A stretch of 37,910 bases of DNA from Polyangiaceae bacterium (GTDB taxonomy: Bacteria; Myxococcota_A; Polyangia; Polyangiales; Polyangiaceae): contig JAKLKA010000063.1 in assembly GCA_023150915.1 (NCBI GenBank), positions 1 through 37,910 of the forward strand, read 5' to 3'. Under the pieces are notes generated by a model. The model searched no databases. It was not told the origin of the DNA and saw only the letters and a program-made list of their open reading frames with translations. The position numbers and the translations under genes were made by a program. This document shows positions 23,630-26,036 of the stretch, piece after piece. The stretch's first letter is position 1, and each line of letters begins with the position of its first letter.

Positions 23630-25111
23630 CTAGCGTTGGCGCGTCGGCCGGGCAACCCACAGGCGGCGAACTGCTTCGGCCAGCTCGCGCTCGTTCAAGC
23701 TGGCGTACCCGAGCCGAAGGTACGGGCGGCTTCGGCCACCGAGGGCGAAGTGGCGCGCGCTCCGAACCGACAGCCCGCGCGCCAGCGCGGCCTCCGACCA
23801 CGCGTCGGCGTTCACGCCGCGGACGCGTGCCCAGAGGGCCATGCCCCCCGAAGGGACCTGGAAGGCCAGCTGGTCCGAGAGCCGGCGCTCCAGCGCGGCG
23901 ACCAGGTAGTCCCGCCGAGCCTGGTAGATCCGCCGGGCCCGCCTCGCGTGGCGCTGCACCACACCGTCTTCCATCAGCTCGGCCAGCGCCGCCTCGAGCG
24001 GCAGGTCGCCCTGCCCGTCCAGGTGTGCGCGAAGCCCGGCCAGCGTGGCCACCACCGGCGGCGGCGCCACGACCCAGCCCACGCGTAGCCCCGGCGCGAA
24101 GATCTTGGAGAGCGTGCCCACCGTGATCACCACTCCGGCCGCGTCCGCGCTGGCGAGCGGCAGCACCGGCCGCCCCTCGTAGTGGAACTCGTGATCGTAG
24201 TCGTCCTCGATCACGGCAAAGCGGTGACGCCGCGCCAGCTCGAGCAGCGCCAGCCGGCGCGGTGCGGCCATGGTCGCGAGGGTCGGGTATTGATGATGGG
24301 GCGTGACGTAGACCGCACGGACACGGCGGCGGGCGCACAGCGCCGACAGGCTCTCGATGTCCAGGCCCGAAGCGCCGACCCCGAGCGGTGCCAGCTCGAC
24401 CCCCCGCGCGCGGAAGGCCTCCCACGCAGGTCGGTACCCGAGCTCTTCGACGCCCACCACGTCGCCGGGCTCGAACAGCGCCTGCGCGATCAGGTAGAGG
24501 GCCATCTGGCTGCCGCGCGTCACCAGCACGTCGTCGGCGCCCACCGCGAGCCCGCGGGTGCTCGCCAGCATTTCGGCGATGGCGGCGCGCAGACGCGGGT
24601 GACCCAGCTCGTGACCGTACGAGAGCACGCGCGTTCTGTCGCGCACCAGGGCGCGGCGCAACGCCCGACCCAGCTCGGCCGCCGGCGCCAGCCGCACGTC
24701 GGGGATCCCGCCAGCCATGGACAGCGTTCCAGGTGGCAGCGGCGCCTCGCAGCTGCCCCGAGCCGGGCCAAGGTCGTAGCCGGGACGCGCGGCGAGGCCG
24801 ACCGCCCGCGCGAAGCGGCGCGGCGGCGCCTCGGGCAGCGCGCCGGACACGAACGCGCCCCGCGCCGGTCGGGTCTCGACCCAGCCCTCGGCCTCGAGCT
24901 CGGCGAAGGCAGCGACCACCGTGTTCCGGTGCACCGCCAGCGATTCGGCCAGCGTTCGGGTGCCGGGCAACCGCTGCCCCGGCTTCAGGCGGCCGCGCCG
25001 GATGTCGTCGGAAAGGGCCCGGGCGATCCGCGCGAACAGCGGGGTGGCGTCACTCTCGCCCAGGGGCAGCGCCAGCTGCCACGTCCGAACTGGTCTGTCG
25101 GAATTCTTCAA
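23630..25111 (-). CDS. MocR-type (GntR wHTH + aminotransferase) PLP-dependent transcription regulator
   Basis: 493 residues if the TTG at 25111 is used, which has AAGG seven bases upstream; the frame remains open to a TTG at 25159, but that TTG is more likely the start of a TTGACA -35 element. Residues about 20-90 are a GntR winged helix (LFARIARALSDDIRRGRLKP, LAVHRNTVVAAFAELEAEGW). Residues about 130-490 are a type-I aminotransferase fold: SYGHELGHPRLRAAIA, TRGSQMALYLIAQAL, VIEDDYDHEF and TLSKIFAPGLRVGW with the PLP lysine K336. MocR proteins sense PLP or amino-acid adducts and control a divergent gene, here the PNPOx-family flavoprotein. Operator-like repeats overlap its own promoter. Confidence 0.9.
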   Translation of the reverse strand: MKNSDRPVRTWQLALPLGESDATPLFARIARALSDDIRRGRLKPGQRLPGTRTLAESLAVHRNTVVAAFAELEAEGWVETRPARGAFVSGALPEAPPRRFARAVGLAARPGYDLGPARGSCEAPLPPGTLSMAGGIPDVRLAPAAELGRALRRALVRDRTRVLSYGHELGHPRLRAAIAEMLASTRGLAVGADDVLVTRGSQMALYLIAQALFEPGDVVGVEELGYRPAWEAFRARGVELAPLGVGASGLDIESLSALCARRRVRAVYVTPHHQYPTLATMAAPRRLALLELARRHRFAVIEDDYDHEFHYEGRPVLPLASADAAGVVITVGTLSKIFAPGLRVGWVVAPPPVVATLAGLRAHLDGQGDLPLEAALAELMEDGVVQRHARRARRIYQARRDYLVAALERRLSDQLAFQVPSGGMALWARVRGVNADAWSEAALARGLSVRSARHFALGGRSRPYLRLGYASLNERELAEAVRRLWVARPTRQR

Positions 25112-25135
25112 ACTGGACCTTACCACTGGTCCAGT
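25089..25135. promoter_or_regulatory. Three ACTGGWCY repeats and dyad: likely MocR operator
   Basis: ACTGGTCT (25089-25096), ACTGGACC (25112-25119) and ACTGGTCC (25125-25132) are direct repeats 23 and 13 bases apart. The middle copy also forms a perfect dyad with GGTCCAGT (25128-25135), 8-base arms and an 8-base spacer. Mixed direct and inverted repeats in the divergent region are typical of MocR-type regulators. The sites cover the leftward promoter's -10, so autoregulation is likely. Confidence 0.6.
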
Positions 25136-25159
25136 ACCGAGGCACACCCAGGGTGTCAA
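25131..25159 (-). promoter_or_regulatory. Likely promoter of the MocR-type regulator
   Basis: On the minus strand a perfect TTGACA (25159-25154), a 17-base spacer and TACTGG (25136-25131). The predicted start near 25124 gives a leader of about 13 bases to the TTG at 25111. The -10 is poor, and it lies within the ACTGGWCY operator. Confidence 0.4.
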
Positions 25160-25161
25160 CC

Positions 25162-25791
25162 ATGAGCAATCTCGAACCCACTGTGCGCACCACCCTCTCT
25201 CGCCGGAAGGAACGCGGCTCGTACGACCGCGACACCGTCTTCGGAATCATCGACGAGGCCCGGATCTGCCACGTCGGGTTCGTCCACGAGGGGCACCCGT
25301 TCGTGCTGCCCACCGCCCACGTTCGGGTGGGGGGGGCGGTGTATCTCCATGGCGCACTGCGCGGCCGCATGCTCGGCGCCGCGTGCGCTGGGGCGTGCCT
25401 GACCTTCACCTTGCTCGACGGACTGGTGCTCGGCCGCAGCGCCATGCATCACTCGATGAACTATCGCTCCGTCGTGGTGCTGGCGCGGGGGCGCGACGTC
25501 ACCGACCGCGACGAGAAGGCGGCAGCGCTCGCCGCGCTGGTCGAACGCGCGGTGCCCGGTCGCTCTCGCGAGGTGCGTCCGCCGAACGAGGCAGAGCTGG
25601 CGGCCACGCGGGTGGTGGCGTTTGCGATCGAAGAGGCCTCGGCCAAGATCCGCTCCGGCCCGCCGGTGGATCTTGCTTCGGACCTCGAGGCGCGGTGCTG
25701 GGCGGGGGTCATTCCCCTTGCACTGGTTGCCGGGTCGCCCGAGCCTGACCCCCTGATGCGCGCAGGGATTGCGCAGCCTCCGCGGGTTTGA
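25162..25791 (+). CDS. Pyridoxamine 5'-phosphate oxidase-family (NimA-like) flavoprotein
   Basis: 209 residues from the ATG at 25162 (MSNLEPTVRTTLSRR), with AGGGTG eight bases upstream; the frame is open much further back through the opposite gene, but no start there makes sense. The fold is the split-barrel FMN-binding type: DRDTVFGIIDEARICHVGFV, HPFVLPTAHVRVGGAVYLHG, and the characteristic HHSMNYRSVVVLARGRDV strand pair. Relatives bind FMN and reduce small substrates; some confer 5-nitroimidazole resistance. Its position opposite a MocR gene is a recurrent arrangement and suggests that the MocR protein controls it in response to a PLP-related signal. The substrate is not known. Confidence 0.85.
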   Translation: MSNLEPTVRTTLSRRKERGSYDRDTVFGIIDEARICHVGFVHEGHPFVLPTAHVRVGGAVYLHGALRGRMLGAACAGACLTFTLLDGLVLGRSAMHHSMNYRSVVVLARGRDVTDRDEKAAALAALVERAVPGRSREVRPPNEAELAATRVVAFAIEEASAKIRSGPPVDLASDLEARCWAGVIPLALVAGSPEPDPLMRAGIAQPPRV

Positions 25792-25844: not shown

Positions 25845-26036
25845 ATGTTGCGCACGCTCTCCGCCGCTGGCCTCGCCCTCGCGTTGTTCGGCGTCCTCGC
25901 GCCGTCCGCCCCCTCTGCTCGCGCTGGCGAGCCCGCCGAAGCGGCGGACGTCTACGTCTGCCCCATGCACCCCGAGGTCACCGACACCAAGCCCAGTCGC
26001 TGTCCGAAGTGCAAGATGAAGCTGGTACCCAGGTAG
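25845..26036 (+). CDS. Small exported heavy-metal-binding domain protein
   Basis: 63 residues. The ATG at 25845 has AGGAG (25836-25840) four bases upstream. Residues 1-27 form a Sec signal peptide with an ARA cleavage site. The mature peptide is essentially one heavy-metal-binding domain: YVCPMHPEVTDTKPSRCPKC followed by KMKLVP, with C39, M41, H42, C53 and C56 as likely ligands. The same YxCPMHP module sits at the N-terminus of copper/silver efflux proteins; as a free periplasmic peptide it probably binds or hands over Cu or another soft metal. No metal exporter lies adjacent. Confidence 0.85.
   Translation: MLRTLSAAGLALALFGVLAPSAPSARAGEPAEAADVYVCPMHPEVTDTKPSRCPKCKMKLVPR

Follow-up and report, generated by a model that had tools for sequence, protein, structure and literature searches.

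A predicted operator of two direct boxes and one inverted box between a MocR-type regulator gene and a divergent PF12900 gene in a Polyangiaceae bacterium

Operators composed of two direct boxes followed by an inverted one are described for 245 MocR regulons (32 %) in the survey of Suvorova and Rodionov (2016; PMC5320631), which includes 19 deltaproteobacterial MocR regulators and in which other MocR groups have cytochromes and cytochrome oxidases among their targets. On the side of the target proteins, Anf3 and MSMEG_4975 both bind heme and FAD, and Anf3 reduces oxygen to water. Binding in Anf3 involves His70, Arg21 and Lys170, and its heme occupies the place that PLP takes in PdxH (PMC6579470). 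The related Nim proteins use the same His for heme (PMC10338468).

The window, a stretch of 37,910 nucleotides from a Polyangiaceae bacterium (contig JAKLKA010000063.1 of assembly GCA_023150915.1), encodes a MocR-type regulator on the minus strand (23630..25111, likely start TTG 25111). The predicted protein has the domain combination of the MocR subfamily, with a GntR-type winged helix-turn-helix domain (PF00392, residues 27-88) and a class I aminotransferase domain (PF00155, residues 152-484), and scores above the cut-off of the NCBIfam PdxR model (354.6 bits; cut-off 320). In an alignment with the aminotransferase homologue 1x0m its segment GTLSKIFAPGLRVGW pairs with GTFSKILAPGFRIGW, and the aligned lysine is taken to be the PLP-binding one. 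The divergent gene, referred to here as the cargo gene, lies on the plus strand (25162..25791, ATG 25162, stop codon 25789-25791) and encodes a PF12900 split-barrel protein (135.4 bits). Directly downstream of it (25845-26036) is a gene whose small product looks secreted and has a heavy metal binding domain (PF19335); among the fetched loci it was seen in one other species of the genus only.

Four copies of ACTGGWCY occur within 47 bp at 25089-25135. The motif scan places three on the plus strand, at 25089-25096 (ACTGGTCT), 25112-25119 (ACTGGACC) and 25125-25132 (ACTGGTCC), and a reverse copy on the minus strand at 25128-25135; the second direct copy and the reverse copy (GGTCCAGT) form a perfect 8+8 dyad with 8 bp between the arms. 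The three direct repeats and the dyad reported in the first-pass annotation are therefore present where it put them. The total motif count in the window is ordinary (5 against 3.24 expected, with at least 5 in 21 of 100 shuffles), and it is the clustering that is unusual: the largest cluster in 500 dinucleotide shuffles held two copies (11/500). We define box 1 as the copy at 25089..25096, box 2 as that at 25112..25119, 23 bp after box 1, and box 3 as the inverted copy at 25128..25135, whose core CCAGT (25131-25135) lies 19 bp after box 2. Such repeated direct and inverted boxes beside a divergent target are characteristic of the MocR subfamily, and, judged from the sequence comparisons described below, the segment 25089-25135 is very probably the operator of the adjacent regulator.

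These definitions follow a profile of orthologous sites. MocR orthologs were found in 89 of 377 genomes of the phylum (E 1e-60), and we used the best 56 MocR places of the phylum search (30 loci and 26 fetched), leaving out weaker places (269.5 bits and below, most 32-40 % identical). Four of the 56 were dropped: L146, which has no MocR N-terminus, and L131, L141 and L148, which missed the stricter E-value and had scored 14, 13.5 and 13 in the first operator scan. The 52 that were left (window included), with seven loci chosen by their cargo (L005, L006, L007, L008, L011, L014 and L037), make up a set of 59. The site in this set consists of ACTGG, a second ACTGG 23 bp on, and CCAGT a further 19 bp on (ACTGG-N18-ACTGG-N14-CCAGT). 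At this spacing at least 12 of the 15 box letters are matched in 43 of the 59 loci and fewer in the other 16, where shuffled sequences gave a mean of 0.10 loci and a maximum of 1; every other box spacing tried reached at most 12 loci. With a narrower search range the count was 42/59, spread over 31 genera. The prediction that an operator common to both genes would recur in front of homologous MocR/PNPOx pairs is thus borne out. As to its composition, the two direct boxes are conserved, and a third direct copy is not. In a profile of 48 sites (those with at least 11 letters at the exact spacing), ACTGG occurs at +36, the place of the copy at 25125..25132 on the plus strand that overlaps box 3, in two sites only (the window and L135), and the conserved third box is inverted; the third direct copy was rejected as an operator box.

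The cargo gene is present in 21 of 108 genomes of the family, strongly in 16. Fifteen family loci have the cargo and a readable upstream region, and ten of them reach 12/15; of the five that miss the site, three have no MocR, and in two the MocR is distant (33 and 38 % identity). The genome of the window itself (an 8.0 Mb assembly in 295 contigs) contains, as assembled, one full operator copy, so the regulon probably consists of this gene pair. Further regulon members in this genome were sought and rejected, with six hits at two mismatches against 21 in the reversed control. Beyond the phylum, MocR/PF12900 pairs of Cyanobacteria and Verrucomicrobia (L023, L026-L028, L040; L035, L044, L051) have similarly spaced boxes by eye, with changed letters (ATTGG, AGTGG) and scores of only 9-11 on the ACTGG pattern.

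Opposite this operator lies in some loci a PF12900 protein on its own and in others a fusion of PF12900 with a GNAT-type acetyltransferase domain (L100-L153). The 59 loci comprise 20 with a lone PF12900 protein, 31 with the fusion, two with GNAT only and six with none or an undefined divergent protein; when the seven loci picked for their cargo are set aside, the counts for the other 52 are 13 (window among them), 31, 2 and 6. Classes were assigned with Pfam for five divergent proteins and by tblastn for the rest. Among the six, L140 and L154 are cut off by a contig edge, and L130 has fusion-type sequence in the other orientation. Operator scores of at least 12 were found in 18/20 lone PF12900 loci and 23/31 fusion loci (two and eight, respectively, fall below the mark), and they drop in loci without a PF12900 gene, where 0/2 GNAT-only loci and 1/6 of the remainder reach 12. 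That single locus is L140, whose cut reading frame starts like a PF12900 protein. The motif KxKLxQ was found by pattern search in at least 18 of the 31 fusion proteins, a lower bound because divergent frames were picked by length, which is wrong for some loci; the His is not settled for this class, and its matches to the nearest solved relatives are weak (best E 0.0008). Across several phyla, 50 of 70 cargo homologs from named genomes are encoded divergently to a MocR gene.

The distance from the operator to the cargo start codon is also conserved. The ATG lies at +66/67 from box 1 in 31 of the 48 sites (20 genera), and 25 of these 31 have a sequence xAxxxT at 54-59, 12-13 bp before the ATG (its first base is C in 24/31 and T in 3/31). 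Leaderless genes are marked by a TANNNT-like signal some 12 bp ahead of the start codon (PMC3160421). Because of the recurrent ATG spacing and the position of xAxxxT, the mRNA of the divergent gene is probably leaderless. The window has CAGGGT (25149..25154, plus strand) as the probable -10 element, 13 bp before the ATG, an element-to-ATG spacing as in L109. Its cargo ATG is at +73, not +66/67, and CAGGGT and ATG are both 6 bp farther from the operator than in L109. No good -35 for the divergent gene is visible in the window.

We infer autoregulation together with control of the divergent gene. A MocR dimer, or possibly more than one, would read the two direct boxes 23 bp apart and the inverted box 19 bp on. 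When bound, it would cover its own start region, leading to autorepression. It would also cover the promoter region of the divergent gene, whose mRNA would start at, or within a base or two of, the start codon, and would repress that gene by occlusion. Relief of the repression would come from a PLP-linked signal sensed by the aminotransferase domain. Counted from the cargo start codon, boxes 2 and 3 of the orthologs occupy about -43 to -20, where the -35 region and the spacer would be, and for this reason we favour repression of the divergent gene, which we consider probable. The converse, activation of the cargo gene by a MocR that is also its own repressor, as described for GabR and PdxR, with boxes 2 and 3 beside a weak -35, has a smaller but substantial chance of being right. 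Activation of the divergent gene is described for several MocR regulators (PMC5320631), and in the window the promoter is about 6 bp farther from the boxes and a consensus scan of 25000-25300 found no sigma-70 promoter. Against this, box 3 in the 31 of 48 sites with the ATG at +66/67 would fall between the -35 and the -10 of a leaderless promoter, a placement that suits repression, and two species keep the cargo gene without the regulator.

Both of these species belong to the genus of the window (G021 and G022; L002 and L003) and have no MocR match at E 1e-60. In G022 the homology stops at window position 23673 and resumes at 25154, and the three-box site is gone (best 10/15), with one ACTGG word about 20 bp before the cargo ATG. 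In G021 a remnant up to 23701 is left, and box 3 can still be made out by eye in the sequence after it. As the junctions differ, the two genomes suggest separate losses of MocR, and because both species lost the regulator along with all or most of the operator and kept the cargo gene, operator control appears to be dispensable.

The cargo protein, described in the first-pass annotation as a flavoprotein of unknown substrate, can be specified further as a probable Anf3-type heme-flavoprotein. PF12900 is its sole Pfam match, and the PdxH models PF01243 and PF10590 do not match. The best solved relative is Anf3 (6rk0, E 8.8e-42, residues 6-206), followed by MSMEG_4975 (4ybn). The alignment to 6rk0 places the proximal His and the propionate-binding Arg and Lys of Anf3 at H63, R14 and K162 of the cargo protein (with an offset of 2 in the chain numbering, worked out from the alignment as printed). 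These heme-contact residues are kept in 91/91, 84/88 and 92/92 aligned homologs, window included (out of 92 homologs; L002 is excluded because it and L022 are one locus). We therefore lean towards a heme-flavin protein of the Anf3/MSMEG_4975 type.

It is unlikely that the cargo is instead a true PNP/PMP oxidase ('pdxO') and the regulator a PdxR- or PdxW-type B6 regulator that tunes PLP supply, even with several observations in line with such a role. The few genes that PdxW regulators were predicted to control are for the most part putative PNP oxidases (PMC5320631), and the MocR protein exceeds the PdxR cut-off. Since PdxJ is present in the genome and neither PdxS nor PdxH was recognised, PNP may be oxidised by another protein. 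A PdxH match is also missing in 7/16 family genomes with a strong cargo match against 18/92 others (Fisher p 0.052, with a true weight that is less, as the genomes are related and some are incomplete). The sequence relationships argue against it: the match is to PF12900 without PF01243 or PF10590, both of the best solved relatives bind heme, and the heme sits where PLP sits in PdxH (PMC6579470). No match to TIGR00558 was found anywhere in the genome, the cargo protein included. Nor is the cargo a general replacement for PdxH, which is also present in 9/16 cargo genomes, while 18 genomes have neither, and the one PNPOx_N protein of the genome (L157) is another candidate for a PNP oxidase. Across the family, 25/108 genomes lack a PdxH match and 99 have PdxJ; some of these genomes are incomplete, and an unrecognised PNP oxidase may exist.

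The start of the MocR gene bears on a promoter proposed for it. The candidate starts of the frame are, from the most upstream, TTG 25159, GTG 25147 and GTG 25126, with TTG 25111 later. The suggestion that the gene starts at TTG 25111 is strengthened by L109, where the equivalent codon is the sole candidate start found; L111 and L005 have ATG at this position, both with other candidates too. We regard TTG 25111 as the likely start on this comparison, and GTG 25126 as a possible one, with L135 having a GTG at the same place. GTAAGG (25118..25123, minus strand) may serve as a Shine-Dalgarno sequence for TTG 25111 or, one base on, supply a -10-like TAAGGT. With this start, box 1 lies within the coding start, as was proposed. 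In all, 26/59 loci have a candidate MocR start within 9 bp beyond box 1, so this overlap is a trait of the window and some relatives only.

The most upstream start, TTG 25159, does coincide with the first letters of a TTGACA (25159-25154, minus strand), which with TACTGG (25136-25131) at a spacing of 17 had been read as a promoter of the MocR gene. The letters are there, and the reading of them as a promoter does not hold across the orthologs. TGTCAA is exact in the window alone (1/48 sites) and present with at most one mismatch in 5/48, window included, at varying places; CCAGTA at +42 occurs in 2/48 sites, window included. The TTGACA promoter was rejected, as its elements are not common to the 48 sites, and no MocR promoter could be defined from the orthologs. 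That this species uses TTGACA-N17-TACTGG together with three direct repeats seems quite improbable. TTGACA is a perfect -35, and transcription from it would begin about 13 nt ahead of TTG 25111, but TACTGG agrees with TATAAT at just 2/6 positions, and the exact TGTCAA (1/48), CCAGTA at +42 (2/48) and the extra direct copy (2/48) are rare among the sites, the window being included each time.

Chance, or the persistence of the repeats merely because box 1 is MocR coding sequence, hardly deserves credence and was rejected: in the window, as in some relatives, box 1 does overlap the coding start, and the total motif count is ordinary, but the position of the boxes relative to the MocR frame and start candidates differs among species while their spacing is constant, shuffles average 0.10 loci in the ortholog scan and give no cluster larger than 2 in the window, and one genome (G046) has a full operator with no MocR gene beside it. 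The cargo gene of G046 (L009, G046:C2) has a 15/15 operator and adjoins a GNAT acetyltransferase gene, not MocR, so the boxes do not simply follow from MocR coding. The MocR ortholog of this genome is on another contig and has no full operator adjoining it (10.4). Two internal stops were counted for this match in the search, and the alignment has one stop, five residues before the end, which we take as the natural end of the protein.

Taken as a whole, the locus allows a tentative wider reading, that the widespread 'B6' MocR divergons ('pdxO') may control heme-flavin redox proteins of the Anf3/Nim type, with sensing of a PLP adduct and a geometry locked to a leaderless promoter. The adduct might form with a small reactive molecule, for example an amine or cyanide, as proposed for MpaR. 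The analysis defines the operator across the phylum by box, spacing and distance to the start codon; we found no experiment on this MocR group. If the cargo is a heme-flavoprotein, 'vitamin B6 oxidase' genes in MocR regulons may need re-annotation, and PLP-sensing regulators would gain a redox or gas-related role. Among the titles listed in literature searches, none linked MocR to Anf3, to myxobacteria and heme, or to a flavin protein, and among the matches listed neither a heme reading of the target nor an operator-locked leaderless start was found. Searches for PdxW with MocR listed PMC5320631 and a paper on lysine production.

The locus can be placed among described systems from both of its genes. 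The cargo protein shares its sequence family and putative heme-contact residues with Anf3 (6RK0) and MSMEG_4975 (4YBN). It shares the sequence family of the Nim proteins too, at a similarity far below the Nim cut-off (33 against 260 bits). MpaR of Pseudomonas aeruginosa is likewise a MocR-type regulator that controls an oxidase gene, but it is described as responding to cyanide and as acting at a short palindrome, 61-62 bp upstream of the transcription start, to drive expression (PMC10790758). With PdxR of B. clausii, C. glutamicum and L. monocytogenes the regulator shares the domain layout and the mixture of direct and inverted boxes. It differs from PdxR in its target, which is not a B6 synthesis gene by sequence. 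PdxR controls genes for PLP synthesis or salvage (pdxST, pdxK, pdxU); here the genome has no PdxS match, and the genome scan found one full operator and none at pdxJ. A close counterpart is the PdxW group, which likewise has two direct boxes and one inverted box with a TGG core and very few targets, mainly putative PNP oxidases plus RimI/RimL-type acetyltransferases (PMC5320631). The passages of that survey on PdxW do not mention heme-flavin targets, a leaderless cargo gene or the PF12900-GNAT fusion. With one full operator and a PF12900 cargo, the locus has the few targets of PdxW type, and its box layout, already known as the commonest described for MocR regulators, fits PdxW with its 'pdxO' and acetyltransferase targets (PMC5320631).
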